Shown here piece after piece: positions 29,974-47,229 of a stretch of DNA of 64,000 nucleotides (the stretch's first letter is position 1; every line of letters starts with the position of its first letter). The stretch is from Burkholderia sp. GAS332 (GTDB lineage Bacteria; Pseudomonadota; Gammaproteobacteria; Burkholderiales; Burkholderiaceae). The stretch is from NCBI GenBank assembly GCA_900142905.1, contig FSRV01000003.1, positions 434,001 through 498,000 of the forward strand, in the 5' to 3' direction. The notes beneath the pieces were generated by a model that had not been told where the DNA came from, did no database searches, and was given only the letters and a program-made list of their open reading frames with translations. Made by a program: the position numbers and the translations under genes.

Positions 29974-31143
29974 TCAGTCGGCGCCCAAGACCATCACCAT
30001 GTATGCCGACATGACGATGCCGCCGGCCTGAACCAGACACGATCGCGCATCCTTCACCTGGCGCTCCCCGGCCTCGCCGCGCATCTGCCGGACCGCCTCG
30101 ATCATCAGTTGCATGCCGAATTGTCCGGAGTGGTTGAACGACAGCCCGCCCCCCGACGTATTGAGTGGGAATGCGCCGCCCGGTGCGATCCGGCCGTCGC
30201 GCACGAACGCGCCTGCCTCACCCGGCGCGCAGAAGCCCAAGGCCTCCAGCCCGTGCAAGACGTTGATCGTGAACGCATCGTAGATCTGCACGAGGTCGAG
30301 ATCGCTGCGGCTCGTCTGCGCCATCGCAAGTGCGTTGGCGCCGCACGTCGCGAGAACGCCGTCGTCGAGCCAGTCGTTGCTGCGTAGCGGCGTCGTATGG
30401 TGCAGATACGCATCGTCGAAGCCTCGTACGACAACCGGACACTTCCTCAGGTCGCGCGCACGGTCTGCGCGCGTCACGATCATCGCTCCGGCACCGTCGG
30501 TCACCTGGCAGATGTCGTACTTGCGCAGCGGGTCGGACACCATCGGCGCAGCCAGGTATGCCTCCATCGTCAGGTCCTCACGCGCCGCCGCGTTCGGATT
30601 CAGCTGTGCCCACTTGCGAGCGGCCAGCGCGACTTCGCCAAAGTCCTCCGGCTTCGTGCCGTAGCGGTGCATGTGCAGTTGCGCCTGCATCGCATAGAAA
30701 CCGATTGGACTCAGCATCCCATAGGGCTGGATGAACTGTCCGTTGGGCGAGCGTGGGTCGGCAGCATGGCCGCCACTCCGCCGGCTGCGGTCCAGCCGCT
30801 GCGTGCTGCCGTAGGTGATCAGCGCCACGTTGCACAGACCGGCCTCGATGGCGCCGATCGCGTGGACGAGGTTCGTGATGTTCGACTGGCCGCCCACCAG
30901 GGTGCTGTCAACGTAGCGTGGCTTCAGGCCGAGGTATTCGGTAACCAGCAGCCCGGCCGCGCGGTCGTCCCAGTAGGCGAACACGCCATCGATGTCGTGT
31001 GGCGCGAGGCCGGCATCGAGCATCGCGCCGCGCGCGGAGCGGCATTGCAGGCTGAGCGCAGTGTCTCCGGGGCCGGCCTTGCCGAGCCCGGCCTCGTCGA
31101 TGCCGACGATCGCATATTGGTGAGCGAGTGCATGCTTCTTCAT
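29974..31143 (-). CDS. Thiolase-fold protein (Ltp/SCP2-thiolase type) lacking the nucleophile cysteine
   Basis: A 389-aa thiolase-superfamily protein. The position that carries the acyl-accepting Cys in true thiolases reads VGGQSNITN, without cysteine. The C-terminal catalytic region has GGGLSFNHSGQFGMQ. It has the IYDAFTINVLHGLEALGFC block of lipid-transfer/SCP-x type proteins. Such proteins often pair with a DUF35 partner and act as (retro)aldolases on acyl-CoA rather than thiolases; a DUF35 gene lies two genes upstream. It is the last gene of the leftward operon, 6 bp after the CoA ligase. Confidence 0.85.
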   Translation of the reverse strand: MKKHALAHQYAIVGIDEAGLGKAGPGDTALSLQCRSARGAMLDAGLAPHDIDGVFAYWDDRAAGLLVTEYLGLKPRYVDSTLVGGQSNITNLVHAIGAIEAGLCNVALITYGSTQRLDRSRRSGGHAADPRSPNGQFIQPYGMLSPIGFYAMQAQLHMHRYGTKPEDFGEVALAARKWAQLNPNAAAREDLTMEAYLAAPMVSDPLRKYDICQVTDGAGAMIVTRADRARDLRKCPVVVRGFDDAYLHHTTPLRSNDWLDDGVLATCGANALAMAQTSRSDLDLVQIYDAFTINVLHGLEALGFCAPGEAGAFVRDGRIAPGGAFPLNTSGGGLSFNHSGQFGMQLMIEAVRQMRGEAGERQVKDARSCLVQAGGIVMSAYMVMVLGAD

Positions 31144-31149
31144 CGCCGC

Positions 31150-32685
31150 CTACCTCTTCGCGCCGAACTGCGAGCGGATGTCCTTCTTGAGCACCTTGCC
31201 GACCGTACTGCGCGGCAACGCGTCCCAGAACACCACATCCTTAGGCGCCTTGGTGCTGCCCAGGCGCTGCCTGCACATCGCGATCAGTTCGTCGGCGCTG
31301 ACCGACTGGCCGGGCTTGAGCTCGACCACCGCGGTGACGCGCTCCCCCCAATCCTCGTCGGGTATGCCGACCACGGCACAGTCCTGTACGGCCGGGTGAC
31401 CCCAGATCACCTGTTCGATCTCGCCGGGATAGATGTTGAACCCGCCGGAGATGATCATGTCCTTCTTGCGGTCGACGATGTACAGGTAACCGTCGGCGTC
31501 GAACTCCCCGATATCGCCGGTGTGATGCCAGCCGAACTGATGCGCATCGGCATTGGCCTGCGGGTTGTTGAAGTACCCCGGCGACACCAGTTCGCCCTTG
31601 GCCACGATCTCGCCGCGCTCGCCCACGCCGACGATGCGCCCGTCGTCGTCCATCAGCGCCACTTCGCAGGCGCCGGTGGGCCGGCCCGCCGAACTCAAGC
31701 GCTTCAGGTGCTTCGGATCGTCGCCGACGTCATGGTCAGAGCGCGACAGGCAGGTGATCACGCCCGGTACTTCTGCCTGTCCGTAGGCCTGGAAGAACAC
31801 CGGCCCCCACAAGGCCAGCGCCTCGCGTAACTTCTCGACCGACATCGGCGCGGCGCCGTACATCACGCACTCGAGCGACGAAGCATCGCGACGGCTGGCG
31901 TCCGGATGCGCGAGCAACCGGTAGATCATGGTCGGCGTAAGGAACAGGTGCGTGACCTTCTCGCGCTCGATCGCCTCGAGGATGCCGCCGGCGTCCGGCG
32001 ACGGCGTGAGCACGTTGCGTGCGCCGAAGATCGCCATCGCCATCGTCGTCGCGCCGGCGGCATGCGTAAGCGGCGCAACCACGAGATGCACGGGGTCCTT
32101 CTCGGGCACGGCAAACTGGTTCTGGATGCGATATGCCGTCAGCAGCGAGCGATGGGTCTGCATGATGGCCTTGGCCCGTCCGGTGGTGCCGCCGGACGAC
32201 TTGATCTGCGCCACGGCGTCGAGCGGCTTGCGCACCGCGACGCGGCGGCCCGCGTGGGCGCGGCCCCAGCCGGCGATGCACGGCCCGCCTTCCTCAACTG
32301 GCTCCTCGAGGCCGATCACGACCTTCAGCGTCGGTACGCCTTCGCGAATGCGCGCCAGGTGCGGTGTGAACTGCGCGTGGCACACAAGCGCACTCACCTC
32401 GGTGAAATGCATGAACCAGATCAGGTCGTCGATGGCGTCGCGGCCGTTCAGCGGCACGTAAGTGGCGCCGGAGCGAAGGATGCCGAGCATCGCGACGAAG
32501 CCGATCAGATTATTCGGCGTCAGGATACCGACATGGGCGTCGCCGAGGCCGAGTTCGCCGAGAGCGAAGGCGACCGCATGCGAATCGCTCTCCACCTCCC
32601 GGTAGGTGAGCCGGGTGTTCGAATCCTGGAGGCAGACGCGGTCGGGAAACTTCACCGCGCCGGCATCGAACGAGTCTGTAATCAT
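31150..32685 (-). CDS. Acyl-CoA synthetase (AMP-forming), leftward operon
   Basis: A 511-aa ANL-superfamily ligase activating a carboxylic acid to its CoA thioester. The P-loop is SSGGTTGRAKAIMQ (a slightly unusual SSGGTTG). Also visible are YGQAEVPG, the hinge block HTGDIGEFDADGYLYIVDRKKD and the C-terminal Lys motif STVGKVLKKD. The start ATG overlaps the stop of the DUF35 gene by 4 bp. It is distinct from the second ligase at 42423-44012, so the pathway may need two activation steps or two substrates. Confidence 0.92.
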   Translation of the reverse strand: MITDSFDAGAVKFPDRVCLQDSNTRLTYREVESDSHAVAFALGELGLGDAHVGILTPNNLIGFVAMLGILRSGATYVPLNGRDAIDDLIWFMHFTEVSALVCHAQFTPHLARIREGVPTLKVVIGLEEPVEEGGPCIAGWGRAHAGRRVAVRKPLDAVAQIKSSGGTTGRAKAIMQTHRSLLTAYRIQNQFAVPEKDPVHLVVAPLTHAAGATTMAMAIFGARNVLTPSPDAGGILEAIEREKVTHLFLTPTMIYRLLAHPDASRRDASSLECVMYGAAPMSVEKLREALALWGPVFFQAYGQAEVPGVITCLSRSDHDVGDDPKHLKRLSSAGRPTGACEVALMDDDGRIVGVGERGEIVAKGELVSPGYFNNPQANADAHQFGWHHTGDIGEFDADGYLYIVDRKKDMIISGGFNIYPGEIEQVIWGHPAVQDCAVVGIPDEDWGERVTAVVELKPGQSVSADELIAMCRQRLGSTKAPKDVVFWDALPRSTVGKVLKKDIRSQFGAKR

Positions 32686-33089
32686 GAAGCCACCGAAAGT
32701 TTGAATTGAGGAAGTGTGATGTCGTCGCTGACCGACTCGAACACCACTTCGACCGGCGCGCCGACACGGAGCTGATCCAGGTCGGAATCGACGATCTGGG
32801 TGAGCATGCGAACCCCCTCTTCCAGGTCGATCATCGCGATCGCGTAAGGCACCTTGTCGACCATCGCCGGGTTGGCGGCAATGCGGCAGATCGTGTAGGT
32901 GTAGATTCGTCCCCGGCCACAGGCATCAATCCATTCCATGTCGCCGCACAGGCAGGCGGTGCAGAACGCTCGGGGGTAGAACTGATGCCGTGCACAGGCG
33001 GTGCAGCGCTGTATCGCGAGCCTGCCCGCCCTGGCTGCATCCCAGAACGGCGCCGTCTCCGTGGTCGGTTGGGGCAGCGGCCGGCTCAT
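32682..33089 (-). CDS. DUF35 / OB-fold zinc-ribbon acyl-CoA-associated protein
   Basis: A 135-aa protein. A helix at residues 10-30 is followed by a zinc ribbon, CTACARHQFYPRAFCTAC, then an OB-fold (IYTYTICRIA, YAIAMIDLEEGVRMLTQI). DUF35 proteins are obligate partners of thiolase-fold enzymes, where the OB domain binds the CoA substrate. It overlaps both neighbours by 4 bp, so its production is coupled to the HMGL-like protein upstream and the CoA ligase downstream. The likely partner is the thiolase-fold protein at 29974. Confidence 0.9.
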   Translation of the reverse strand: MSRPLPQPTTETAPFWDAARAGRLAIQRCTACARHQFYPRAFCTACLCGDMEWIDACGRGRIYTYTICRIAANPAMVDKVPYAIAMIDLEEGVRMLTQIVDSDLDQLRVGAPVEVVFESVSDDITLPQFKLSVAS

Positions 33090-34576
33090 GTGCGGGCTCC
33101 AAAGGCCGCGCCAGTGACCTGGACGCGTCGTCGAATCCGTGCGAGGCCAGCGACCAGATCGGCGAGCGGATTGCGCACGCTGAACTCGTCGCCGTTACCC
33201 GTGGGTGCCAGACCGTCGATCTTCTCGTCGCCGTACATATAGCGCAGCAGCAGGGCGTCGTCGTCCAGTTTCGGGTAGCGCTTGCGAAGGCCCGGCACCA
33301 CCGGCTCGAGCGGCGGCGGCGTGAGCGCGACATCGCGCGAGCCGTTCTGGAGGATGCGATCCTTGACGTCGGGGTCCACGGGCAAGGGCAACTCGCCGAA
33401 ATAGCCGCAGACGTATTTCTTCACTTCGTCAGGCACCACCTTGTAGCGCTCGTTGTTGAGGACGTTCATCACCGCCTGAGCCGCAACGATTGCGGGATAA
33501 GGCGTAACCATAATCGGCGAGCCGAGTTCGACGCGCACGCGGCCAATCTCTTCGAGCACCGCAGGCAGCTTGTCGGCGATCCCGGCCTGCCTGAGCTGCG
33601 ATTCCAGATTGCTCATTGCGCCGCCCGCGTACTGGGTGACGTAGTGACTGGGTTCGTACTCGGCAGGCACCCCGACCGGTTGCTGCTCCCGTTGCGCCAC
33701 TGCACCGAGGTAGTCCCCGACCTCGTCGAGCAAGCCGTCGTTGACCACGACATCAAAGCCGATCTCGCGCAGATTGCGCGCAATCATCTGGCTGGCCGGC
33801 AGCGAGTTGCCGTTGGCGAGCGGATCGACCGCCGTCAGGATGCTGTCCGCGCCATGCACCGCGGCCTCGATCGCGAGCCATGGCCCGAGCCCGGTCAGGC
33901 AGTGAGTGTTGAATTCGAGCCGCTTCTCGCCGATCGCCTGCTTCAACGCTGGCACGAGCGTGCGGACCCGGTCGATCGTGAGGATGCCAGCCGCATCGGC
34001 GAGCGCCACGGTGTGCACACCGAAACGCTCCACAGCTTCGCGCGCCTTGCTCGCGTACAACGCATCGTCATAACCCGGCGCGATGTTGTAGCCAAGTCCG
34101 AGCGTCACATTGGCGCCGAGCCGATGCGCGGTACCGATACTCGAGGCGAGATTGTCCGAGCACAGCAAGGCATCGAAAACTGCAATTTCGCGGATGCCGT
34201 TGGCGATCTGCCGTTCGACAAAGAGGTCGGTGATGTCGTCAGCCACCGGAAAGAAACCGCGCATCAGGTTGCTACGAACGGCGCCACGCATCGGCGTGCG
34301 GGTGATCCGCTCACGCAGCAGGCGGATGCGCTCGAACGGGTCCTGGTTCAGGAACAGCACGCTCGCATCGAACTGGACCAGCGCGATCGTCTGCATCGAG
34401 ACGAAGCCGGCCTGGTCCATGCGTTCGGCGATGGGCAGCATGTGCTCAGTGCGCATGCGGGTGGCCCACAGGCATTGCTGGGCATCGCGCAGCGTGTCGT
34501 CTGTCAGGTGGATGGTGCGGCGCTTGCCAGTGCGCGCGGTCTGAGCCTCGACGAGACTCTTCAGGTGTTCGAACAT
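33086..34576 (-). CDS. HMGL/pyruvate-carboxylase-type carboxyltransferase-fold protein 1
   Basis: A 496-aa TIM-barrel protein like the alpha subunit of oxaloacetate decarboxylase, 5S transcarboxylase and the CT domain of pyruvate carboxylase, with the PYC/OADA helical region at ~300-480. The motif LTDDTLRDAQQCLWATRM is well kept. Two other metal-site motifs are altered: the usual IKDMAG reads ALADAAG (carbamylated Lys lost), and the usual HxH reads NTHC (first His lost). The start was chosen at ATG 34576, 8 bases after AAGGAG that lies in the last codons of the upstream gene. It has no biotinyl domain of its own. Confidence 0.85.
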   Translation of the reverse strand: MFEHLKSLVEAQTARTGKRRTIHLTDDTLRDAQQCLWATRMRTEHMLPIAERMDQAGFVSMQTIALVQFDASVLFLNQDPFERIRLLRERITRTPMRGAVRSNLMRGFFPVADDITDLFVERQIANGIREIAVFDALLCSDNLASSIGTAHRLGANVTLGLGYNIAPGYDDALYASKAREAVERFGVHTVALADAAGILTIDRVRTLVPALKQAIGEKRLEFNTHCLTGLGPWLAIEAAVHGADSILTAVDPLANGNSLPASQMIARNLREIGFDVVVNDGLLDEVGDYLGAVAQREQQPVGVPAEYEPSHYVTQYAGGAMSNLESQLRQAGIADKLPAVLEEIGRVRVELGSPIMVTPYPAIVAAQAVMNVLNNERYKVVPDEVKKYVCGYFGELPLPVDPDVKDRILQNGSRDVALTPPPLEPVVPGLRKRYPKLDDDALLLRYMYGDEKIDGLAPTGNGDEFSVRNPLADLVAGLARIRRRVQVTGAAFGART

Positions 34577-34581
34577 TGAGG

Positions 34582-36030
34582 CTACTCCTTGCACTGGTAA
34601 AGGCGGATATCGACGCCGGGGCCCGTCACGCTCAGGAATGCGTAACGCTGCGAGCGCTGGAACAGCCCAAGCGCCAGGCGGTCCCAGGGTGAGGCCGGCC
34701 GATAAGTCAGTTCGGCGGCGCTCGACGCACGGGGCAGTGACGACGGGGATGCCGCAAAGGCATGCGCCAGCAGGCGCGACGCATCGTCAAGCAGAGGCAT
34801 CGCGCGGCGGATGTCCTCGAGGCTCTTGCATTGAACCTTCTCCAGCGCTCCGACGCGTTGCTGCAGTCCGCGATCCAATGCGCCATCGACCGGCCCGTAG
34901 GCGCCAAGCAGGATTCGGCGCAGGCCGGGCTGAAGCTCGGCATAGCGCGCCATGCCGCTGAAGTGCTGCCACGCCTGGGCCGCGATGGGTCCGGCGAACG
35001 GCGCGACCATCGGTGGGTTCCCGACCTCGGCGCGCACGCGAGCGCATTCCTCGGCGAATGCATGCAGTTCGGCAAGCCGACCGGACTCGGTCAACGCGTC
35101 CATTGCCTGTGCCGCAATTTCTCCCGGCAACTGGTGGACATAGGGCGCCACGTCGAACACCCAGCGTGCACCCGCCGGCAAGCCCTCAGCGTCCGCAATC
35201 CGCGCCAGCTCCGCGTCGGCTTCGGCAACACCGGCCATGTCCGGCACATCTGCGTCGACGCCGAGCAGTGCGAGCGAGCGAACCAGTCTCGTCAGCGACG
35301 GCACCGACGCGCCGTTGGCCACGCACGGCAGTGCCGTGTCGATGCCCGCCACGCCCAGGCGCACCGCTTCGATGACGACCTGCGGTGCGAGCGCCGTCTG
35401 GCAACGCGTATGCAATTGCAATGGCGTTGCCCGCAGCGTCTCGAGCAGCAAGGGGATCAACGTCGCGATGCGGTCCACCGTCAGCACGCCAGCCTCGTCG
35501 CGCAGCATCACGCGCTCGGCGCCGTCGGCCACAAGATGCGCGGCCTGCGTGCAGTACCACGCGTCCGTGCGCCGCTCGGCGGCGTCATACGGCAGCACAC
35601 CGACGGCACTGACACCGGCCCGGCGCGCCGCGAGGAACATCGGGCGCAACCGGTCGCGTTGCAACAGCGGATCGACGATGACCACCTGCGCGATGCCACG
35701 CGCAGCGAGCTCGGCGATCCAGGCCGAGCCAACCTCGGGCGACAGCACGTCGGCACCGCGGCCACCGTGTTCGGTCAGGAGGTCCAGACGTGCGCGCAGT
35801 ACCAGCAGCCCGGCGGCCCTCCGCAGCGCCGTGACGCGCTGCCAGGGATCCTCGTCGCGAGCAAGGCACTCTTGAAATGTAGTGGTGCTGATGACCTCGA
35901 CCTCAGCGAGGCCTGTTCCCGCCATTCGCGCGAGCGGAAGCCGCGCCATCGCGGTGGTCAGCGCGCCCGACCAGGTGACGGTCTGCCCGTCGGTCAAGCT
36001 CACATCGGAGAACTGAACGCGCGCGATCAT
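34582..36030 (-). CDS. HMGL/pyruvate-carboxylase-type fold protein 2 (strongly diverged)
   Basis: A 482-aa paralogue of the next gene with the same domain order (barrel at ~1-270, PYC/OADA-like helices at ~280-440). The entry motif is reduced to SLTDGQTVTW, IKDMAG reads MLRDEAG (Lys to Arg) and HxH reads HTRC (second His lost). It shares YVHQLPGEIAAQA with the family and a PYVHQ-type helix. Together the two tandem paralogues keep one histidine each, hinting at a hetero-oligomer or a non-metal function. Its start overlaps the biotin carboxylase stop (ATGA). Confidence 0.8.
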   Translation of the reverse strand: MIARVQFSDVSLTDGQTVTWSGALTTAMARLPLARMAGTGLAEVEVISTTTFQECLARDEDPWQRVTALRRAAGLLVLRARLDLLTEHGGRGADVLSPEVGSAWIAELAARGIAQVVIVDPLLQRDRLRPMFLAARRAGVSAVGVLPYDAAERRTDAWYCTQAAHLVADGAERVMLRDEAGVLTVDRIATLIPLLLETLRATPLQLHTRCQTALAPQVVIEAVRLGVAGIDTALPCVANGASVPSLTRLVRSLALLGVDADVPDMAGVAEADAELARIADAEGLPAGARWVFDVAPYVHQLPGEIAAQAMDALTESGRLAELHAFAEECARVRAEVGNPPMVAPFAGPIAAQAWQHFSGMARYAELQPGLRRILLGAYGPVDGALDRGLQQRVGALEKVQCKSLEDIRRAMPLLDDASRLLAHAFAASPSSLPRASSAAELTYRPASPWDRLALGLFQRSQRYAFLSVTGPGVDIRLYQCKE

Positions 36031-37439
36031 GATTGCACCTCCACGGCCTTGGCCGCCTTCAGCGCCGCCTTGCGGGCCGGAATAAAAGTGTCTTCGACCC
36101 AGCGGGTCGTGACCTGGCCTTTCGCAAAATCGTCATGCTCGAGGACTGCCTCGTGGAACGCGATCGTCGTAGCCGGACCGTCGATGTGGAAGTCGGCCAG
36201 CGCCCGGCTCATTCGCGCGATCGCCTCGGCGCGCGTCGGCGCGTGAACGATCAGCTTGGCGATCAGCGAGTCGTAGTACGGCGGCACCGTGTAGCCCTCA
36301 TGGCAATGCGTGTCGAGCCGCACGCCAACACCCGACGGTGGCTGCCACCGATCAATTCGTCCGGGCCGCGGCAGGAAGTTTTTGTCCGGGTCCTCGGCAT
36401 TGATGCGGCATTCGATCGCGTGACCGTCGAGCGCAATGTCTTGCTGACTGAACGACAGCGGCAGTCCACAGGCGACGCGAATCTGCTCGGCCACCAGGTC
36501 GCGCCCCGTCACCTCTTCGGTGACCGGGTGCTCGACCTGGATGCGGGTGTTCATCTCGAGGAAATAGAACTTGCCGTCCCTGTCGTCGACCACGAACTCG
36601 ATGGTGCCGGCCCCGAAGTACCCGACGTTACGCGCCAGTCCCACCGCTGCTTCGCCCATCTGCACGCGCATGTCATTCGACAGGAACGGCGAGGGTGCCT
36701 CTTCAATAAGCTTCTGGTGCCTGCGCTGGGTCGAGCATTCGCGCTCGCCGAGATGCACGACGTTGCCGTGCTGGTCGCCCATCACCTGGATCTCGATGTG
36801 CCGCGCCTTCTCGATGAACTTCTCGACGTAGAGCGTCGCATCGCCAAAGGCCGATTGTGCTTCCGACGATGCCGACTTGAACGCCGCTTCGACCTCGTCG
36901 TCGGAGCGCACGACGCGCATGCCGCGTCCGCCGCCGCCCGCGGTCGCCTTCATCAGCACCGGGTAACCGATGTCCGCGGCAATCCGGCGCGCGGCTTCAG
37001 GGTCGGCCAACGCGCCGGAGCCCGGCACGCGCGGCACGCCGGCCTTGGCGGCGAGGCCCACGGCGGTAATCTTGTCGCCCATCGCGTCGATCGCTTCGGG
37101 CGACGGGCCGATGAAGATGAGCCCCGCTTCAGCGCAGGCGCGGGCAAACGCCGGGCGTTCAGAAAGGAAGCCGTAACCGGGGTGCACCGCATCGCAGCCC
37201 GATTCTTTCGCAGCGCGCACCAGATTGGCGATCTTGAGATAGCTCTCTGAAGCCGGGGGCGGCCCGAGTACGACGTGCTGGTCGGCGAGGCGCGCGGCCT
37301 GGCTTTCGACGTCGGCCTCGGAGAGCCCAGCGACCGTCTCGATGCCGAGGCTGCGGCAGGCGCGAATGATACGCACGGCGATCTCGCCGCGATTGGCGAC
37401 GAAGACGCGCCGGATGTCGTGCTTGACGACTGGAACCAT
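36027..37439 (-). CDS. Biotin carboxylase subunit (AccC-like)
   Basis: A 470-aa ATP-grasp enzyme carboxylating biotin on a carrier protein. The N-terminus VFVANRGEIAVRIIRACR is typical. ATP-grasp motifs follow: MKATAGGGGRGMRVV, KARHIEIQVMGDQHGNVVHLGERECSTQRRHQK-type residues around 225-265, EMNTRIQVEHPVTE, and a C-terminal domain with GVRLDTH. Length is normal for free-standing AccC-like subunits. It follows the BCCP gene by 21 bp in the leftward operon. Confidence 0.95.
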   Translation of the reverse strand: MVPVVKHDIRRVFVANRGEIAVRIIRACRSLGIETVAGLSEADVESQAARLADQHVVLGPPPASESYLKIANLVRAAKESGCDAVHPGYGFLSERPAFARACAEAGLIFIGPSPEAIDAMGDKITAVGLAAKAGVPRVPGSGALADPEAARRIAADIGYPVLMKATAGGGGRGMRVVRSDDEVEAAFKSASSEAQSAFGDATLYVEKFIEKARHIEIQVMGDQHGNVVHLGERECSTQRRHQKLIEEAPSPFLSNDMRVQMGEAAVGLARNVGYFGAGTIEFVVDDRDGKFYFLEMNTRIQVEHPVTEEVTGRDLVAEQIRVACGLPLSFSQQDIALDGHAIECRINAEDPDKNFLPRPGRIDRWQPPSGVGVRLDTHCHEGYTVPPYYDSLIAKLIVHAPTRAEAIARMSRALADFHIDGPATTIAFHEAVLEHDDFAKGQVTTRWVEDTFIPARKAALKAAKAVEVQS

Positions 37440-38229: not shown

Positions 38230-39774
38230 GTGACCACAGCTACGTATTCAGAACAGTCTGAACAATTCGACGCCCGCCTGCGCCATGCCCTGGCGATGGG
38301 GGGCAGCGCCAAGCTCGAGCAGCGACGCGCGACCGGCGCGCTGAACGCCCGGGAACGCGTCGAACGTCTGCTCGACGAAGGTTCGTTCAAGGAAATCGGC
38401 ATGCTTGCCACGTCGGCCGTAGCCGCGGATCGCGAGTCGACGCCGGCTGACGGCAAGATCACCGGCCTCGGCCGGATCGACGAGCGTCGCGTCGCCGTGG
38501 TCTCGAATGACATGACCGTGAAGGGGGCGTCCTCGTCGAGCACCAACATGCGCAAGATCGCGTGGATCAAGGAGACCGCAACGCGCAACGGCGTACCGCT
38601 GATTTTCCTGGGCGAGTCGTCGGGGTCACGCGTGCCCGATTCGCTCGGCGCGCAAGCGATGGCGCAAGCCGGCCTCGACCCTCAGCAATATTGCCGCCGC
38701 CGCGAGATCCCTTGGGTGAGCGCCGTGCTCGGCCCGTGCCTCGGGTCGTCGACGTGGTACACCTGCCTGTCGGACTTCGTCGTCATGCGCAAGGGCGCGT
38801 TTCTCGCCGTGTCGAGCGCGCGCGTGACGTCCGCGGCCATTGGCGAAGCGATCGATCCGGAAGAGCTCGGCGGCTGGCGGCTGCATGCGGAACAAACCGG
38901 TCTGGTGGACATGGTGGTGGCAACCGATGAGGAGGCGCTGGACGCAATCCGCCGCTTCCTGTCGTACCTGCCTTCACATGCGGGCGAGGCCGCACCCAGC
39001 CGCACCGCTGGCGCCGACGTCGAGCCCACCACCGAGCCGCTCACCGAACTGGTACCCGCCGCGCGCGCAAAGACCTACGACATGCGCAAAGTTATCCCCG
39101 CCATCGTCGACCGCGACAGCTTCTTCCCGCTGAAGGATCGGTTCGGGCGCGCCGCGGTCACCGGCCTCGCGCGCCTGAACGGTGAGAGCATCGGCATCGT
39201 GGCCTCGAACCCGATGTTCAAGGCCGGCGCGATGGACCCCGACGCGTGCCGCAAGGTCACCTCGTTTCTGGTGCTCTGCGATTCATTCAATATCCCCGTG
39301 CTGTTCCTCGTCGACACGCCGGGGTTCCTGGTCGGCCTGGAGGGCGAGCGTAAGGCCGCACCGGCGCACATCATGAACATGATTCACGCGGTTCAACTGT
39401 GTTCCGTACCCAAGGTTTCGGTCATCCTGCGAAAGAGTTTCGGGCAGGCCTACATCAACATGGGCGGCGGCCGCAACAGTGACGAAGTGGCCGCGTGGCC
39501 CGGCGCCGATGTGAGCTTCATGGATCCCGAGGTCGCAGTCGGTGTGCTGCACGGCGTCAGTCGCAGCGACGACGCGCAGCGGTTCGAAGCCTTAAAGGCT
39601 GAGCTGGTGCGAGACACCTCGGCCTATGCGCTGGCCGGTGCGTTCGGCGTGCAGACCGTCATCAAACCCGAGCAAACGCGCTCGTTCCTGATTGAGGCCT
39701 TCCGCACTCATCGCCGCTCGAGAAGCGCCGGCGTGGGACTGCATGAAATGCGCGCGTGGCCGACCTACTTCTGA
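38230..39774 (+). CDS. Acyl-CoA carboxylase carboxyltransferase subunit (PccB/MmdA-like)
   Basis: A 514-aa crotonase-fold carboxyltransferase that would transfer CO2 from carboxybiotin to an acyl-CoA. The N-terminal half has ARERVERLLDEGSF, FLGESSGSRVPDS and the C-terminal half has SNPMFKAGAMDPDACRK, DTPGFLVGLEGERKAA, SFGQAYINMGGG. The usual GG(A/S)xTH segment reads GGWRLHAEQTGLVD, a diverged acyl-CoA pocket. GTG 38230 after CGGAG is the most likely start, placing both candidate operators upstream. It probably works with the carrier/biotin carboxylase of the divergent operon. Confidence 0.88.
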   Translation: MTTATYSEQSEQFDARLRHALAMGGSAKLEQRRATGALNARERVERLLDEGSFKEIGMLATSAVAADRESTPADGKITGLGRIDERRVAVVSNDMTVKGASSSSTNMRKIAWIKETATRNGVPLIFLGESSGSRVPDSLGAQAMAQAGLDPQQYCRRREIPWVSAVLGPCLGSSTWYTCLSDFVVMRKGAFLAVSSARVTSAAIGEAIDPEELGGWRLHAEQTGLVDMVVATDEEALDAIRRFLSYLPSHAGEAAPSRTAGADVEPTTEPLTELVPAARAKTYDMRKVIPAIVDRDSFFPLKDRFGRAAVTGLARLNGESIGIVASNPMFKAGAMDPDACRKVTSFLVLCDSFNIPVLFLVDTPGFLVGLEGERKAAPAHIMNMIHAVQLCSVPKVSVILRKSFGQAYINMGGGRNSDEVAAWPGADVSFMDPEVAVGVLHGVSRSDDAQRFEALKAELVRDTSAYALAGAFGVQTVIKPEQTRSFLIEAFRTHRRSRSAGVGLHEMRAWPTYF

Positions 39775-39792: not shown

Positions 39793-40017
39793 ATGACCCA
39801 ACGAGCACTCAAATCGGAAATCACCGGCACGGTCTGGAAGATCGACGCGCAACCCGGCGACAACATGGATGAAGATCAGGTTGTTCTGACACTGGAATCG
39901 ATGAAGATGGAAATTCCAGTGATAGCGCCCGAAACCTGCCGCCTGATCTCCGTACTCGTCAAGGAAGGCGAAGCGGTGCGTGAGGGCCAGGACCTCGCGG
40001 TAATCGAACACGATTGA
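39793..40017 (+). CDS. Minimal biotinyl-domain carrier protein (74 aa)
   Basis: A single lipoyl/biotinyl domain: SEITGTVWKIDAQPGDNM, biotin site LESMKMEIPV, then VLVKEGEAVREGQDLAVIE. The glutamate-flanked ESMKMEI site is like stand-alone carriers of decarboxylases and acetyl-CoA-type carboxylases. It lies 18 bp downstream of the carboxyltransferase gene. Two carriers of different architecture in one cluster suggest two carboxyl-transfer partners or a back-up. Confidence 0.93.
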   Translation: MTQRALKSEITGTVWKIDAQPGDNMDEDQVVLTLESMKMEIPVIAPETCRLISVLVKEGEAVREGQDLAVIEHD

Positions 40018-40103
40018 GGACGCACGGCTCCACTAAGATATTTGGGAGCCAATGTGTCGACAATCATACAAATTCGGCCAATGTCGCCGAAAAGGAGACA
40101 CGC

Positions 40104-41381
40104 ATGAACTGGAAGAACAGGCCGGGCGCCGTGCTCGCCACACTATTGACGATTCACCTTCTGGGTCAAATCGATCGCAACATGCTGCTTGGCTTCTCGC
40201 CGCAGATCACGCGGGACCTGGCGCTCAGCAACGCGCAGTACGGCTTCCTGGTCGGCGCGGTGTGGGTTTTGAGTTACGGCGTGATGTCGGTGCTCATGGG
40301 AACACTCGCCGACCGCTTCAGCCGCCCCCGCCTGATCGCCGTCGGCCTCGTCATCTGGAGCGTATGCACCGCGGCTTCCGGCACGGCACATACGTTCGGG
40401 CAGATGGTAGCGGCACGCTTTCTCGTCGCCAGTGGCGAGGCCGCGTTGATCCCGGCCGCCGTGGCGCTGCTGTATGAAGTCTTCGCCCCTCAGCGGCGAA
40501 GCGCGGCGATTGGCTTGTTCTTCATGGGCATTCCGGTTGGCATCGGCTGCAGCTTCCTGCTCGCCGGCTCGTTTGGCGCCGAGCATGGCTGGCGCACGAC
40601 TTTTTTCGCACTGGGCGCAATCGGGATGGCTATCGCGATACCGCTATCGCTGCTGCGCGAGCGCCGCGGCGAACAGCCGCAAGACGCGCGCGGCGAACCT
40701 TTCGTCGCGCAGGTGGGCGCCGTCGCTGCCCTGATGCGAGGGAACCCGGCCATCGTGCTGACGATCGTTGGTTTCGTGCTGGTCCACATGGTCGTGGCCG
40801 GGCTTTCGTTCGCGCAACTATGGCTGGTGCGTGAGCGGGGCTTCGATGGCGCCAGCATCGCCAGGACGATGGGCCTGCTGCAGATCGTCTTCGGCACGCT
40901 GGGTTCTCTGGCCGGTGGCGCGCTGGGCGACCGCTATGCGCGCCGCCTCCCTGGCGGGCTCGCTACGTTCATGCTGATACTCGTGCTCCTGGCAGCACCG
41001 CTGATGATCGCTTACCGCCTGGCGCCGGCCGGCTCCCCGCTGTTCTACGCGGGGATGTGCGCGGGTTTCTTCCTCCCGTTGGCCCTGTATGGACCGGCCA
41101 TCACCGTCATCCAGAGCCTGACCCCGCCGCAGATGCGTTCGACCATTACCGGTTGCTGCATGTTGCTGATCAACATCTTCGCCGCCGCCATCGGCAGCTT
41201 TGCCATTGGCTCGGTGAGCGACGCGCTGGCGCGCGCCGGCGTAAGCGCGCCGCTCACGAAGGTACTGCTGGGGGCGGATATCGTGGCCATCGCGTCGGCG
41301 CTGTTCTTCCTGATGGCGGCGCGGCGCCTGTGTAGCAAGGCCCCGACGCCCCAGGGTACCAGCGAGGCCGTGCTCCCATGA
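40104..41381 (+). CDS. MFS transporter
   Basis: A 425-aa inner-membrane protein with about 12 transmembrane helices. The start MNWKNRPGAVLATLLTIH follows AAGGAGA at ideal spacing. Loop 2-3 carries GTLADRFSRPRL, the MFS signature. It is the third gene of the rightward operon and probably takes up (or exports) the acid handled by the pathway; the substrate cannot be read from sequence. Confidence 0.88.
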   Translation: MNWKNRPGAVLATLLTIHLLGQIDRNMLLGFSPQITRDLALSNAQYGFLVGAVWVLSYGVMSVLMGTLADRFSRPRLIAVGLVIWSVCTAASGTAHTFGQMVAARFLVASGEAALIPAAVALLYEVFAPQRRSAAIGLFFMGIPVGIGCSFLLAGSFGAEHGWRTTFFALGAIGMAIAIPLSLLRERRGEQPQDARGEPFVAQVGAVAALMRGNPAIVLTIVGFVLVHMVVAGLSFAQLWLVRERGFDGASIARTMGLLQIVFGTLGSLAGGALGDRYARRLPGGLATFMLILVLLAAPLMIAYRLAPAGSPLFYAGMCAGFFLPLALYGPAITVIQSLTPPQMRSTITGCCMLLINIFAAAIGSFAIGSVSDALARAGVSAPLTKVLLGADIVAIASALFFLMAARRLCSKAPTPQGTSEAVLP

Positions 41382-41586: not shown

Positions 41587-41646
41587 GAATACGTTATGAT
41601 AGAATGCTTCCGCACTACTACAACCTTACATAGGCTAAACGGAATC

Positions 41647-42360
41647 ATGTCGACCACTGACGACAACATTGCCGATGTTGCGGTCCCCAATGGTGCGCGC
41701 GGAGGACGCGGCAGTCCGCGGCCCCTGACCATGCCGGAACAGATCGCCGAGAGCATCACCGACGCAGTGCTACGAGGCGACTACCAGCCAGGCGATCGCG
41801 TGCGCGAGCAGGAGCTGGCGTCGCAGTTTCAGGTCAGCCGCGGCCCGATCCGGGAAGCGCTGCGGATCCTCGAAAAGAGCGGCGTCGTGCGCATCTTGCC
41901 ACAACGCGGTGCGCACATCACGCAGCTCAGCGCGAAGGAAGTCAACGACCTCTTCGAGGTTCGGCGCTCCCTCATCGGCCTGCTTGCTCGCAAGATATGC
42001 CCTGCGCCGCCGGCACTGATCAGGGCGGTGGATCAGCAAGTTCGCACTTTGGAAGCGCTCGGCGGTCAGGAGAGCGCGACGGAAGAACACGCGAAAATTA
42101 GCCTGTTGCTGAGCCGGCTGATACTCGCCGCTTGCGACAACCATCGGCTGGTGGAGATGCTGGAGTCGCTCGTCAACCAGACAGCGCGATATACGCGGCT
42201 CGGATTGCGCGAACCACAGCGCCGCACACAGTCGGCCGCCAGTTGGCGCAGTTTCGTGATCGCCCTTGAGGCCGGCAACGCCGACCTCGCCGCAGCGGCT
42301 CTCGAAGGCCTCGTCGAGGCGTCGCGCGTCGCAGCCGTGAAGCATCTTCAGCAAGGCTGA
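41647..42360 (+). CDS. GntR-family (FadR/FCD subfamily) transcriptional regulator
   Basis: A 237-aa regulator. The winged helix-turn-helix covers residues ~30-95 (REQELASQFQVSRGPIREALR, GVVRILPQRGAHI), and the all-helical FCD ligand domain follows at ~110-230. ATG 41647 is preferred to an upstream ATG because of position and GGAA. It lies between two transcription units of the cluster, and the FadR-type dyad near its own promoter and its neighbours suggests that it represses them until an acid or acyl-CoA binds. Confidence 0.9.
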   Translation: MSTTDDNIADVAVPNGARGGRGSPRPLTMPEQIAESITDAVLRGDYQPGDRVREQELASQFQVSRGPIREALRILEKSGVVRILPQRGAHITQLSAKEVNDLFEVRRSLIGLLARKICPAPPALIRAVDQQVRTLEALGGQESATEEHAKISLLLSRLILAACDNHRLVEMLESLVNQTARYTRLGLREPQRRTQSAASWRSFVIALEAGNADLAAAALEGLVEASRVAAVKHLQQG

Positions 42361-42397: not shown

Positions 42398-42409
42398 ATT
42401 GTAGACAAT
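42398..42409. promoter_or_regulatory. Operator-like dyad upstream of the second acyl-CoA ligase
   Basis: ATTGTAGACAAT is a perfect ATTGT-NN-ACAAT dyad 13 bases before the ligase ATG; a further half, GGACAATATTAT, follows at once. The position overlaps where RNA polymerase or the ribosome would bind, typical of repression. Confidence 0.6.
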
Positions 42410-42422: not shown

Positions 42423-44012
42423 ATGAGCACTCAGATTGCTGGCCGCATGATCTCCTGGGCATCGGCCCAGCACGCGAGCCGAACCGCCCTCGTCTTTCAG
42501 GGCCGCAACATTACGTTCATTGAAGTCGAGCGACGCAGCAACTGCCTGGCCAACGCTCTGATCTCGCTCGGGCTGAAGCCCGGCGAGCGCATCGCAGCGC
42601 TGCTTGCCAATTCAGAAGAGACCGTAGATAGCTTCTTCGGAGCGGAGAAGGCCGCGCTGACCTACGTGCCGCTGAATGCCCGCCACACACTGCATGAGCA
42701 GGTGGATATCCTCAACGACTGCGAAGCTGCCGTCGTTATCGTAGGCCCGGAGTTCCGCGACGTCGGCGCGCGGCTCGCAGCCCGCCTGTCGTCAGCCCGG
42801 GTGCCGTCGCTCAGGCACGTCGTCGCGCTCGGATGGTCGGCACCAGGAACGATCGAGTACGAGACACTTGTCCGCACCGCGAGCGAGGCAGCGCCCGCAA
42901 TCGAGGTCGGCTCCGACCATCTGATACGCCTCGCCTATACCTCGGGCACGACCGGCAAGCCCAAGGGCGTGGCCTACTCGCTGGCTCGCTGGCAAGCCCG
43001 CCTCACCAATCACTTCGACGCGATGGAGTATCGGCTCGGTCCGGACGACGCGATGCTGCACGTCGGCCCGTTGACGCACGCTGCCGGAGTCCATCTGCTG
43101 CCCTGCTACCTGTGCGGGGCGCGCAACGTGATCGAAGACAAGTTCGACGTCGATGCGGTGCTCGCACTGATCGAGCAGTACCGCATCACCCAGATCATGC
43201 TCGTGCCCACGATGCTGAACCGCCTGGTCGACGCAGTGGAAAGCGGCGCGAAGGCGGACCTGTCATCGTTGCGGCGCATCCACTACGGTACGGCACCGAC
43301 GCCGCCCGATCTCATCAAGCGTGCGATCGCCGCGTTCGGGCCGATCCTGCGCCAGCAGTACGGCATGACAGAGGCGGCGCAACCGCTGACCGTGCTGTAC
43401 CCAGACGATCATGTGGCCGGTGATGAGGTGCAGGAGCAGCGCTTGCTGTCCTGCGGACGGCCGACGGCCAACGTACACATCGCGATCCGCGACACCAGCG
43501 GCGCTACGCTGGCGCCGGACGAGATCGGTGAAATCACGATCGAATATCGCGGCATCGGTGAGGTGCAATTCTGGCGCCGGCCCCAACTGCTCGCCGAAAC
43601 GGTACGTGACGGCTGGTACTACACGGGCGATCTCGGCTACTTCGACAAGGCCGGCTTCCTGTACATCGTCGGCCGCAACAAGGACATGATCATCTCCGGC
43701 GGTTTCAACGTCTACGCGCGCGAAGTCGAAGATGCTCTTATCAGCCATGGCGCCGTGTCGGAAGCCGCGGTGCTGGGGCTGCCCGACTCCGAGTGGGGCG
43801 AGACGGTCGCGGCCTTCGTGGTCACGCGCACCGGCACGACGACCACGGCCGAAGAACTGCAGCGCCACTGCGCAGAGCGTATCGCCAGCTATAAGAAGCC
43901 GCGCCTGGTGGAGTTTGTCGACGCGCTGCCGCGCAACGGCGCGGGCAAGGTCACGAAGAACACCCTACGAGACACCTACCTGGCATCACGAAAGGAAGCA
44001 AACAATGAATGA
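42423..44012 (+). CDS. Acyl-CoA synthetase (AMP-forming), rightward operon
   Basis: A 529-aa ANL-superfamily ligase. The P-loop YTSGTTGKPKGV is canonical. Also present are YGMTEAAQPL, YTGDLGYFDKAGFLYIVGRNKD and the catalytic-Lys motif NGAGKVTKNTLRD. It heads a four-gene unit (ligase, TauD-type dioxygenase, biotin synthase, P450) with overlapping or near-overlapping junctions. The substrate is unknown; the neighbouring oxygenases could prepare or modify the acid. Confidence 0.92.
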   Translation: MSTQIAGRMISWASAQHASRTALVFQGRNITFIEVERRSNCLANALISLGLKPGERIAALLANSEETVDSFFGAEKAALTYVPLNARHTLHEQVDILNDCEAAVVIVGPEFRDVGARLAARLSSARVPSLRHVVALGWSAPGTIEYETLVRTASEAAPAIEVGSDHLIRLAYTSGTTGKPKGVAYSLARWQARLTNHFDAMEYRLGPDDAMLHVGPLTHAAGVHLLPCYLCGARNVIEDKFDVDAVLALIEQYRITQIMLVPTMLNRLVDAVESGAKADLSSLRRIHYGTAPTPPDLIKRAIAAFGPILRQQYGMTEAAQPLTVLYPDDHVAGDEVQEQRLLSCGRPTANVHIAIRDTSGATLAPDEIGEITIEYRGIGEVQFWRRPQLLAETVRDGWYYTGDLGYFDKAGFLYIVGRNKDMIISGGFNVYAREVEDALISHGAVSEAAVLGLPDSEWGETVAAFVVTRTGTTTTAEELQRHCAERIASYKKPRLVEFVDALPRNGAGKVTKNTLRDTYLASRKEANNE

Positions 44013-44889
44013 CTATGGATTGAGCGCCATCGAGGCGTGGAACAACCGTCCTCGCCGGCACTACGAAACCATCAGCGTCAAGCCGCTGACGCACACGATC
44101 GGCGCGGAAATCAGCGGCGTGGATCTGTCCACCGAGTTGTCGGATCAACAGTTCGACGAGATCCGTCATGCGTGGCTGGAGAATCTCGTCGTCATCTTCC
44201 GCGACCAGCAGATGACGCCCGAGCAGCACAAGCGCCTCGGCCGTCGCTTCGGCGCGTTGCACGTGCACCCGCTCAACGCCGTAAAACCCGGCAAGGACCC
44301 GGAGATCTTCGAGGTCAAGGCTGGCAAGCACTCGAAGACAGTGGCAGGCGAAGGCTGGCACACGGATGTGTCGTGCGATGCCGAACCGCCAATGGGCTCA
44401 ATGCTTTACGTCACGCAGATGCCAGAGGGAGGCATCGGCGGCGACACCATGTTCGCCAACATGTACCTCGCCTACGACATGCTGTCGGATCGACTCAAGA
44501 GTTTGCTCGAGGGCATGACCGCCATTCACGACGGCGCCATTCCTTACGCTGGCCGCTATCGACACAAAGTGCCCGAAGGCGGTTTCCCGACCGCCGAACA
44601 CCCGATCGTGGTGCGGCATCCCGAAACCGGCCGCAAGCTGCTGTTCGTCAACCCGGGCTTTACTTCGCATATCGTTCAGCTCACCGGCTACGAGAGCAAG
44701 TGCTTGCTCGGGATGCTCTACCGAATGATCGAGATAACCCCGTCACTCGTCTGCCGGATCCCCTGGACGCAGAACTCCATGGTGTTCTGGGACAACCGCT
44801 GCACACAACACCACGCGGTCTGGGACTACTACCCACTCAATCGCTATGGGCAGCGCGTCACCATCGCCGGTCAGGCGCCGAGCGCCTGA
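44005..44889 (+). CDS. TauD/TfdA-family 2-oxoglutarate-dependent dioxygenase
   Basis: A 294-aa non-haem Fe(II) enzyme that hydroxylates a substrate while decarboxylating 2-oxoglutarate. The iron ligands are visible as HTD in EGWHTDVSC and the distal His in CTQHHAVWDYYP, with the 2-oxoglutarate Arg in YGQRVTIAG. ATG 44005 overlaps the ligase stop by 8 bp and follows AAAGGAAG. Members act on taurine, alkyl sulfates, phenoxyacetates and related small acids; which applies here is not evident. Confidence 0.92.
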   Translation: MNDYGLSAIEAWNNRPRRHYETISVKPLTHTIGAEISGVDLSTELSDQQFDEIRHAWLENLVVIFRDQQMTPEQHKRLGRRFGALHVHPLNAVKPGKDPEIFEVKAGKHSKTVAGEGWHTDVSCDAEPPMGSMLYVTQMPEGGIGGDTMFANMYLAYDMLSDRLKSLLEGMTAIHDGAIPYAGRYRHKVPEGGFPTAEHPIVVRHPETGRKLLFVNPGFTSHIVQLTGYESKCLLGMLYRMIEITPSLVCRIPWTQNSMVFWDNRCTQHHAVWDYYPLNRYGQRVTIAGQAPSA

Positions 44890-44914
44890 AAAAGCTACGT
44901 AGAACGGAAGAATC

Positions 44915-45958
44915 ATGAAACCGATTGCCATCGTTCCCCTTGCCTCGCTGCGCGCCGAGGCCGCCGCAGTAACCGCCGCCACTGCCGCCGCGCAAGCACG
45001 CGAGTCAGGTACCGTTGCGCGGTGGAGCGTGGAGGCCATCCTGGCGCTCTACGGCCTGCCCTTCATGGTCCTGATGTTTCGTGCCCAGGAGGTGCATCGG
45101 CAGCATTTCGACTCCAATGAGGTGCAGTTGTCGACGCTACTTTCGATCAAGACCGGAGGCTGTGCGGAAGACTGCGGCTATTGCCCTCAATCGGCCCATT
45201 TCGAAACGGGCGTAGAGGCCAGCAAGCTGATGCCGCTTGAAGAGGTCGTTGCCGCCGCCCACGCGGCCAAGGCCCAGGGTGCAACGCGCTTCTGCATGGG
45301 GGCGGCCTGGCGCAGTCCCAAGGAGCGTGACATGGAGCGCGTTTCCGCGATGATCCGCGAGGTGAAGGCGTTGGGCATGGAGACCTGCGTGACGCTCGGC
45401 ATGCTCAACGCGGACCAGGCGAATGGGTTGAAAGAGGCAGGACTGGACTACTACAACCACAACCTCGATACCGCGCCGGAGTTCTATGAGCGCATCATCA
45501 GCACGCGCACTTACCAGGACCGCCTCGACACGCTGATGCACGTGCGCGACGCCGGTATTCACGTGTGTTGTGGCGGCATCGTTGGGCTGGGCGAATCGCG
45601 CGAGCAGCGCGCCGGGCTGATTGCGCAACTCGCCAATCTCGCCCCCTATCCCGAATCGGTACCGATCAACAACCTGGTGCAGGTGGACGGCACACCGCTG
45701 GCCGGCACCGCGCCCATCGACCCGTTCGAGTTTGTGCGGACCATCGCTGTCGCCCGTATCACGATGCCGCAGACCATGGTGCGGCTGTCCGCAGGCAGGG
45801 AGGCGATGGACGAATCAACGCAGACGCTGTGCTTCCTCGCGGGCGCAAACTCCGTCTTCTATGGGGACAAGCTGCTGACCACGGCCAATCCGCAGTCACA
45901 ACAAGACCAGGCCTTGTTCGCCAGGTTGGGGATGCGCATCTCGGGACAGGCCGCATGA
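44915..45958 (+). CDS. bioB: Biotin synthase
   Basis: A 347-aa radical-SAM enzyme inserting sulfur into dethiobiotin. The cluster motif is [11 protein letters not shown], followed by [11 protein letters not shown], the family blocks [18 protein letters not shown] and [14 protein letters not shown], and the second-cluster Arg in MVRLSAGR. A 45-residue Ala-rich N-terminal extension precedes the core. It overlaps the P450 by 4 bp (ATGA). No other biotin genes are nearby, so this copy probably serves the local biotin-dependent carboxylase. Confidence 0.95.
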
Positions 45959-47229
45959 GAGCCGCAGTAGTTGCTGCCCGGAACGATCTCCCGGCTGCCT
46001 GCCGCCCCATTGTCGACGCCGCTTTCCTGAACGATCCCTACCCCGCATATCGTGAACTACGCGAGGCTGGCCCGATTCACTGGAGCGAAGAATTTTTCGG
46101 CGGCGCCTGGCTGCTCACGAGGCACGAGGATGTAGAAAGCGTGCTGCGCGATCCCCTCTACTCCGCGCGCCGCACGGGAGGTTGGGTCATGCGGGGCAGC
46201 GAAGGGGCGCGTCAGGAGCTCTGTCCCTTCCAGCGCCTGTTCAGCCGGGCGATGCTGTTTCTCGATGCGCCAGACCACACGCGGCTGCGACAGGTGCTCA
46301 ACGCGGGCTTCCGCCCGGCAACCCTACGGGCCTCGGCCGCAGCCATCGAGCGCATGGTGGCCGGTTTGATAGACAAGCTTGACGGGGTGGCAGAGTTCGA
46401 TTTTATGGAGGAGTTGGCAAGGCCCCTGCCAGCGAGGGTGATTGCAAGGCTGCTCGACATGGAGGGCGTTGAGCAGCAGGACTTCCTCGCCTGGTCCGAG
46501 GACCTGGCTGCCTTCATCGGCGCACCGGCCCCCGATTCCGGGCTGAAACGGCGAGCCCAGAGCAGCCTGCTCAAGATGTGTGCCGCGTTCGAGAACTTGT
46601 TGGCACGGCGCCGCGCGCAAGCTGCGGATCTGCCGGATTCTGCGGGGGACGACCTGATCGCGCACCTGCTTCACGCCGAGGCCAGCGGCAAGGTCGAATC
46701 GGAAGCAGAAATGCTGGCGCAGTGTGCCATGTTGCTGTTCGCGGGCCACGAAACCACGCGCAACCTGCTTGGCAATGGCTTGCAGGCCCTGTTGAGCCAT
46801 CCGGAGCAGTGGCGCCAGCTGCGGCAGGCTCCTGATCTGCTGCCGAACGCTTTGCGCGAGTTGCTTCGATACGAGAGCCCGGTGCAGTACACGGGGCGAC
46901 GAGTCACAAAGGATCTCGTCCTGCACGGATGCAGGCTCAGGCGTGGAGAACTGGTGGTCCCCTTGATTGGGGCCGCCAATCGGGATCCGGCCCGCTATCG
47001 GGACCCAGACCGCCTGGATATCACCCGGCAAGAGGGATCGCATCTGTCGTTTGGGCACGGACCGCATGTGTGCGTCGGTGCCGCACTGACGTTACTGGAG
47101 GCTGAGATTACCTTCCGCGCGCTGCTGGCACGCTGGCCGGAGCTGGAACTCGTGGATGCGGAGCCCCAGTGGAACGGGAATCCTGTTTACCGCGGGCTCG
47201 CGTGCCTTCAGGTGCATCGAAGCGGGTGA
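45955..47229 (+). CDS. Cytochrome P450 (CYP107/BioI-like), coupled to bioB
   Basis: A 424-aa soluble bacterial P450. The I-helix is [10 protein letters not shown], the ExxR motif ELLRYESP, and the haem-binding loop [13 protein letters not shown] with the axial Cys. It has no fused reductase. The ATGA overlap with bioB recalls Bacillus, where bioB is followed by bioI, a P450 cleaving fatty acyl-ACP to a pimeloyl precursor. Whether this P450 does the same or oxidises the pathway substrate is open. Confidence 0.9.

Follow-up and report, generated by a model that had tools for sequence, protein, structure and literature searches.

Few aerobic catabolic pathways are known to use carboxylation at an early step. 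The Hpe, Xcc and Acv pathways combine a kinase, a three-component carboxylase and a phosphatase, with a coenzyme A (CoA) synthetase and a beta-keto hydrolase in addition in Hpe (PMC9618137, PMC8461187, PMC13101465); HpeCBA carboxylates phosphorylated aryl ketones, and those who described Hpe in 2022 were aware of no second case in aerobic aromatic degradation (PMC9618137). Of 836 reported cases, only 52 had kinase and carboxylase in one cluster, hpe-like sets without a clustered kinase being common (PMC13101465). Here we describe a divergent gene cluster in a 64,000-nucleotide stretch of Burkholderia sp. GAS332 DNA (the window; G000:C3:434001-498000, on an 805 kb contig of a 10.4 Mb Burkholderiaceae genome). 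The gene set is real, conserved, patchily distributed and rare. Its nearest described systems are Xcc, Hpe and Acv, biotin-dependent ketone carboxylases of three components, and it reads most naturally as a variant of this plan with altered catalytic residues in both central subunits.

The cluster shares with Hpe, Xcc and Acv the grouped genes for a biotin carboxyl carrier protein (BCCP), a biotin carboxylase (BC) and an HMGL/PYC-type carboxyltransferase, a CoA ligase and, as we propose, carboxylation early in catabolism. Where those systems have one carboxyltransferase subunit, the window has two paralogs (PycB1 and PycB2), and in each the canonical Lys and one of the His residues are gone; it also has an extra PccB-type carboxyltransferase (CT), a second carrier (BCCP2) and a thiolase-fold/DUF35 pair without the catalytic Cys (Thl and DUF35) that would replace HpeF. 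The kinase and phosphatase of Hpe, Xcc and Acv have no counterpart among the cluster genes scanned: no domain of a two-component phosphoenolpyruvate-utilising kinase/phosphatase was found in the 18 open reading frames (ORFs) to which the search was confined. An earlier note on this DNA, made without database searches, had stated that no described pathway has this set, which is too strong, since the core with its CoA ligase is the Hpe/Xcc/Acv plan. A literature search by title and abstract opening returned no description of this gene set, most subscription literature being out of reach. Nearly every family named in the earlier note, and the gene overlaps, were borne out by Pfam and NCBIfam scans of the window ORFs.

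The Propionibacterium transcarboxylase is composed of 12S, 5S and 1.3S components. The window shares with it a 12S-like CT, a 5S-like PycB and a small biotin carrier, and differs in having BC, CoA ligases and an oxygenase and in the loss of metal-site residues from the 5S-like proteins; since BC is present, the window system is probably ATP-driven, unlike the transcarboxylase. With PCC-type acyl-CoA carboxylases it shares PccB-type CT, BC and biotin carrier genes. Related loci link a BC/BCCP/HMGL-type carboxyltransferase core with CoA-ligase, CoA-transferase or thiolase genes; on plasmids the carboxylase core stands with a kinase, a ligase and a thiolase/OB-fold pair in Rhodococcus, with a CoA-transferase and a thiolase in Cnuibacter, and with an acetoacetate-CoA ligase in Rhizobium and Pseudomonas.

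The genes for carboxylation and cleavage are:

29974..31143, minus strand: Thl, thiolase-fold protein with no nucleophilic Cys (Thiolase_C_1, 1.6e-50; GGQSN replaces CAS; YDAF motif)
31150..32685, minus strand: Acs1, AMP-forming acyl-CoA ligase (PF00501/PF13193)
32682..33089, minus strand: DUF35/OB-fold protein, likely Thl partner (PF01796/PF12172)
33086..34576, minus strand (ORF opens at 34594): PycB1, HMGL/PYC_OADA-type carboxyltransferase subunit (Lys to Ala, HxH to NxH)
34582..36030, minus strand: PycB2, divergent PycB1 paralog (Lys to Arg, HxH to HxR)
36027..37439, minus strand: BC, AccC type (TIGR00514, 663.5 bits, cut-off 626.5)
37461..37943, minus strand: bccp, BCCP of 160 amino acids (PF00364; TIGR00531, 114 bits, slightly below the cut-off of 115.2)
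38230..39774, plus strand (ORF opens at 38152): CT, PccB/MmdA-type carboxyltransferase (PF01039, 3.1e-98)
39793..40017, plus strand: BCCP2, biotin carrier of 74 amino acids (PF00364, 3.8e-13)

The CT start was assigned by us from the DNA as the GTG at 38230, 3' of the operator listed below; PCC beta (1vrg) is the best solved relative of CT.

The PycB1/PycB2 and Thl/DUF35 pairs

In metal-dependent carboxyltransferases of the 5S type, a carbamylated Lys and an HxH motif act as metal ligands. Two adjacent paralogs of this family are encoded in the window and at 13 further loci, with homology over the barrel and the PYC_OADA domain present in the pair. PycB1 matches PF02436 at 5.8e-26; PycB2 reaches 22.2 bits against a cut-off of 27 for the same model, yet matches 5ks8 at 1.5e-30. 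In PycB1 the Lys is replaced by Ala, Gly or Tyr and the first His of HxH by Asn or Ser (17 of 17 rows), and in PycB2 the Lys is replaced by Arg and the second His by Arg or Gly (14 of 14 rows); these counts omit the fragment L021, and the loci L024 and L100 represent one strain. Across 29 other HMGL-type rows the Lys was kept in 22 and HxH in 27, and these comparator loci held no pair with both members degenerate. Among the loci compared, the alignments place a doubly degenerate pair only in PycB2 carriers. Two HMGL-type carboxyltransferases were also seen in L048 (12524-14104 and 5391-7067; one canonical, one degenerate) and in L055 (9047-10576 and 12219-13733; both canonical).

The two paralogs differ in conservation. 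In the tree, PycB1 falls beside carboxylases of the same order, of Caballeronia and of two actinobacteria, mostly with canonical residues, and PycB2 forms a long branch of uncertain origin. Alignment of the window with G261, a genome of another genus in the family, gave 83-84% identity for PycB1, the most conserved protein of the comparison, and 49% for PycB2. From this unequal conservation we infer a catalytic PycB1 and a relaxed, pseudo-enzyme-like partner in PycB2. A bolder reading, less likely than not, is that the two form a heteromeric, metal-free biotin-dependent carboxyltransferase of novel chemistry, with PycB1 as catalyst and PycB2 as fast-evolving structural partner, that feeds an aldol-type and not a thiolytic cleavage. 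A leucine/terpenoid route of the HMG-CoA-lyase type was rejected, the best models and the listed solved structures for the two proteins being pyruvate carboxylase, oxaloacetate decarboxylase and 5S and not HMG-CoA lyase; with PycB1 the Pfam HMGL-like model itself stays under its cut-off. AlphaFold models built from 8-row alignments had a mean pLDDT of 53.8 for PycB1 and 58.0 for PycB2 and were set aside.

The predicted cleaving enzyme is also altered. The CAS motif seen in the thiolases of L026, L027, L093 and L096 is GGQSN in Thl, and a fifth comparator (L054) likewise has no CAS; the Cys is missing in 4 of 4 aligned cluster members and retained in 4 of 5 comparators, so that Thl does not have the nucleophilic Cys that defines SCP2-type thiolases. 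In the steroid side-chain aldolases Ltp2-ChsH2 and Sal-Shy, the Tyr of a YDxF/Y motif is the base, and the second catalytic acid is Tyr344 in Ltp2 and Cys304 in Sal (PMC12329534). Thl shares with them the SCP2-thiolase fold, a DUF35 partner (its gene lies one gene away), the absence of a nucleophilic Cys and the Tyr, as YDAF; it differs in the third motif residue, Ala in place of His in Ltp2 and Cys in Sal, and in having no Tyr at the position of Ltp2 Tyr344. With the Cys gone and the YDxF Tyr kept, aldol-type cleavage is likelier than thiolysis, and Thl is likelier to be an aldolase-type C-C cleaving subunit than a thiolase. Similar parts occur in other combinations: L054, from the same order, combines a Cys-less Thl (35%) and DUF35 (38%) with BC, a carrier and a single carboxyltransferase in which Lys and HxH are retained, and in L051 a canonical HMGL-type protein is accompanied by a PccB-type CT 50% identical to that of the window.

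Conservation and regulation of the cluster

A block of about 28.5-46.1 kb (query: window 24001-56000) is common to Burkholderia sp. OK233, Paraburkholderia madseniana RP11 and P. solitsugae 1N at 92-97% DNA identity, which begins at 28545-28589 in all three relatives and stops at 46069-46242, with interruptions. In 1N the cluster is without bioB; in RP11 (L007) the DNA match skips 38480-39840, with most of CT gone (only about 91 and 21 residues match, at L007:6097-6428) and the remainder of the cluster intact. G261 keeps the order thl-acs1-duf35-pycB1-pycB2-BC-bccp / bccp2-gntR-acs2-CT2-CT-MFS, with identities of 47-84% for thl, acs1, duf35, pycB1, pycB2, BC, bccp, bccp2, gntR, acs2 and CT (PycB1 84%, CT 79%, Thl 75%, BC 74%, PycB2 49%, bccp 47%) and 27% for MFS. 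The same synteny, whole or partial, was found at named Burkholderia, Paraburkholderia and Variovorax loci. A single scan, using two peptide patterns, gave 16 loci (L020 and L021 short or partial), hosted by Burkholderia/Paraburkholderia, Variovorax and metagenome-assembled genomes (MAGs) of Burkholderiales and Gammaproteobacteria.

In Variovorax, 4-13 kb of other genes can split the core genes into two modules; the distance is about 5 kb in G301, 8 kb in G302, 12.5 kb in G303 and 4 kb in G307. Module A is bccp-BC-pycB2-pycB1 / bccp2-gntR-acs2-CT2 (bccp2 unmatched in L008), and module B is thl-acs1-duf35 / CT, to which a separate bccp2, MFS gene and gntR usually belong. In G304 the two modules lie on two contigs, each near a contig end, and may or may not be linked. 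CT2, a second PccB-type carboxyltransferase about 32% identical to CT, stands beside acs2 in Variovorax and G261 (joined L004+L005, 19869-21380), and the window cluster holds CT only. Solo PycB1 genes were seen in Variovorax (L009:10001-11494 and L011:6295-7785) with a TauD gene, TctC binding proteins and a DLH-type hydrolase as neighbours; no BC or PycB2 match lay within these stretches.

Across the carrier genomes, thl (E-value ≤ 1e-100) is present in 12 of 13, the exception being a MAG. Of 299 family genomes, two, one of them G000, had PycB2-like matches (E-value ≤ 1e-60), and a search of 399 order genomes with a PycB2 alignment passed 9, G000 among them; of the 13 places found in the remaining eight, every one was nearest PycB1 by tblastn (36-49%) and none nearest PycB2, two of these stretches carrying a second PycB1-like match. 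In the genus of G261, PycB1 (E-value ≤ 1e-180) occurs in 1 of 60 genomes and thl (E-value ≤ 1e-140) in 5 of 60, in 4 of them 58-59% identical and without PycB1; both genes are too rare for genus-wide co-occurrence statistics.

Other features of the conserved block, besides the biotin genes listed further on, are:

28637..29761, minus strand: porin (Porin_4, outer membrane; Pfam 7.2e-50), outside the range covered by the earlier note and within the conserved block
38166..38177, no strand: operator ATTGTCAACAAT in the divergent promoter region (motif search)
40014..41381, plus strand: MFS transporter (PF07690, 1.5e-40)
41596..42360, plus strand: GntR/FCD regulator (PF00392, PF07729)
42398..42409, no strand: operator ATTGTAGACAAT upstream of acs2 (motif search)
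42423..44012, plus strand: Acs2, AMP-forming acyl-CoA ligase (PF00501/PF13193)
44005..44889, plus strand: TauD-type 2-oxoglutarate dioxygenase (taurine dioxygenase 1gqw, 3.9e-54; frame read from the DNA)

The shared dyads described in the earlier note are present: ATTGTNNACAAT is exact at 38166 and 42398, with no other occurrence in the window even with one mismatch. This count is not significant within the window (23 of 100 shuffles give 2 matches), so support for the operator comes from relatives. TTGTnnACAA was found in 19 of 20 regulatory regions cut from both modules (the L007 region excluded), compared with 67 of 10,000 random segments from the same loci; the single region without it lies upstream of the window gntR. 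Because the motif was discovered on the same 20 regions, which come from related genomes, the count is a strong description and not an independent test. TTGTnnACAA occurs in the window just at 38167 and 42399, both inside the cluster. As both modules bear the same operator, the comparison leaves one GntR-type regulon spanning both modules well supported, with the cluster GntR as the presumed binding protein of TTGTnnACAA. Used as a regulon finder, the operator gave five other exact genome sites without cluster genes by tblastn; distant GntR genes (27-29%) adjoin two of these five. Synteny, the distribution of thl and the motif regions together uphold the earlier claim of one co-conserved system with a shared operator.

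Proposed route and its alternatives

We propose a GntR-controlled catabolic regulon with two biotin-dependent carboxylases that would share one BC, a reading that we place first while stopping just short of calling it probable. The substrate would be imported by the porin and MFS transporter (step 1) and oxidised by the TauD-type enzyme (step 2). BC, the 160-amino-acid carrier and PycB1/PycB2 would carboxylate a carbonyl-bearing intermediate in a manner resembling Hpe/Xcc, and different from them in having no prior phosphorylation and no usual metal site (step 3). An Acs ligase would form the CoA thioester (step 4), Thl/DUF35 would free a short acyl-CoA by aldol-type and not thiolytic C-C cleavage (step 5), and CT/BCCP2 with the same BC would carboxylate an acyl-CoA, perhaps the freed propionyl- or acetyl-CoA (step 6). 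BioB and a BioI-like P450, where present, would raise biotin supply. The order of these steps, the sharing of BC and every substrate are what we infer. A regulon of this kind, whose paired carboxyltransferase is stripped of key residues and whose cleaving enzyme has no Cys, would point to another class of substrate and possibly to a reaction without metal. The earlier note listed a TauD-type dioxygenase and a P450 in a route with an oxygenation step. The TauD gene is real, in the frame 44005-44889 (the ORF 44037-44918, tried as the oxygenase gene, has no family match); the P450 was not retained as pathway oxygenase, since its 73-79% identical relatives trail bioB in bio sets on three Cupriavidus plasmids and little or only a damaged copy of it is left in all three close relatives of the window.

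Several observations weigh against this route. A carboxyltransferase lacking its metal site may not carboxylate any ketone, and L027 and the second copy in L048, outside the system, are likewise without Lys and one His. Thl retains just one of the two Ltp2/Sal catalytic residues, a Gly (by manual count) aligning with Ltp2 Tyr344. Without a kinase and phosphatase among the scanned cluster genes, the Hpe logic is not directly transferable. Loss of most of CT in RP11 means that step 6 is dispensable there or that the locus is decaying; the window MFS is just 27-30% identical to those of G261 and Variovorax; and a TauD gene lies near only some carriers.

A doubtful alternative, which we nevertheless take seriously, is that PycB1 and PycB2 are no longer carboxyltransferases and serve as an aldolase, a decarboxylase or a scaffold, with CT (CT2), BCCP2 and BC as the sole carboxylase, acting on an acyl-CoA from a ligase/aldolase route comparable to the one for bile-acid side chains. 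The substitution of Lys and a His in both proteins, the resemblance of Thl/DUF35 to the Ltp2/Sal aldolases and the solo PycB1 genes beside tauD in L009 and L011 all fit this explanation. It accords poorly with the way PycB1, PycB2, BC and the 160-amino-acid carrier stay joined where the modules separate, with PycB1 being the most conserved protein relative to G261, and with RP11, where most of CT is lost while PycB1, PycB2 and BC remain intact.

An ordinary aryl-ketone pathway of the Hpe/Xcc/Acv type, with kinase and phosphatase encoded elsewhere and immaterial residue substitutions, seems rather unlikely. It would account for the same BC/BCCP/CT core, and a clustered kinase is uncommon in the published survey (PMC13101465); kinase-linked loci also carry substitutions, with Glu for Lys in L026 and L096 and Tyr in L027. 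Against it, L028, which has the Hpe gene order, and L029, which is near it, keep Lys and HxH, no doubly degenerate pair occurs in the 29 comparator rows, and Thl is without the Cys required for thiolysis.

Biotin genes and other neighbours

BioI is a P450 that cleaves acyl-ACP to give the pimeloyl unit. Two accessory genes follow tauD in the window:

44915..45958, plus strand: BioB, second genomic copy (TIGR00433, 413 bits, cut-off 225)
45955..47229, plus strand: P450, BioI-like by gene context (BioI 3ejb is the second-best solved match)

The window BioB is 74% identical to the chromosomal copy, and the P450 start, read from the DNA, is the ATG at 45955, overlapping the bioB stop. Neither gene is conserved with the core. 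Cluster-borne bioB is found in 3 of 13 carrier genomes (G000, G299 and G300), and the gene is an accessory. Only the window has an intact P450; fragments of it remain in L085 and L087, and DNA identity in L086 ends about 0.1 kb into the gene.

Relatives of the P450 (73-79% identical) lie directly after bioB in three Cupriavidus bio sets within 10 kb of BC/CT genes. The plasmids P-10 and pBB1 have bioA-F-D-B-P450, of which the window keeps only bioB and P450; on the third plasmid, EM10, an annotated bioF lies amid fragmentary matches to bioA and bioB, and the P450 again comes next (search without bioD). As bioB and P450 thus resemble the tail of a bio operon near Cupriavidus plasmid carboxylases, the P450 is probably a BioI-like biotin-synthesis gene and not a catabolic oxygenase. 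Two further relatives, which are not beside bio genes, count against the bio link: in C. pinatubonensis a 76% identical P450 adjoins pyruvate carboxylase, and in Massilia a 55% relative has no annotated bio or carboxylase gene nearby. A Polaromonas plasmid with bioF, bioD, bioB and P450, partly broken and with no carboxylase match, counts against the carboxylase link.

In the plasmid sample (14 of 15 listed loci, out of 141 records with a match), 5 of 14 loci have bio genes within about 10 kb of an HMGL-type carboxylase, two of the five from one strain; the background is 244 bioB places (E-value ≤ 1e-60) in 7.3 billion plasmid bases. Neither bioB nor bioA was found in the 13 order-survey stretches, several of which end at contig ends. 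Biotin supply is a recurrent, optional companion of these carboxylases, and the earlier claim that the cluster brings its own biotin supply through bioB is strengthened by bio genes beside related carboxylases. The recurrent plasmid linkage suggests that catabolic carboxylases with a high cofactor demand can take the supply of that cofactor along with them.

That biotin itself is the substrate, for catabolism or capture, would explain the linkage of carboxylase and BioB, and would fit the window's bioB and its P450 of the bio-operon type, the avidin and BPL_N genes of G261 and the avidin gene of L017, but is highly improbable given patchy bio genes, avidin in 2 of 13 carrier genomes and larger bio sets that adjoin other biotin-dependent carboxylases, as fits cofactor demand. 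The avidin/BPL_N lead was dropped on the same avidin count.

Avidin-family genes lie at the Thl end in two genomes (L004:6804-7286, plus strand; L017:17095-17520, minus strand), in G261 beside a BPL_N protein (L004:7291-8094, minus strand); G305, which holds L014 and L017, gave no bioB match at E-value ≤ 1e-40. In Caballeronia sp. NK8, the plasmids pNK82 and pNK84 (L100 and L024) both carry the same stretch of single-CT carboxylase and bioA/bioB. In the window, a Tn3-family transposase (48341-50929, minus strand; NF033527, 509.7 bits, cut-off 500) lies 1.1 kb past the P450, and its position next to the P450 end is consistent with mobility of the region.

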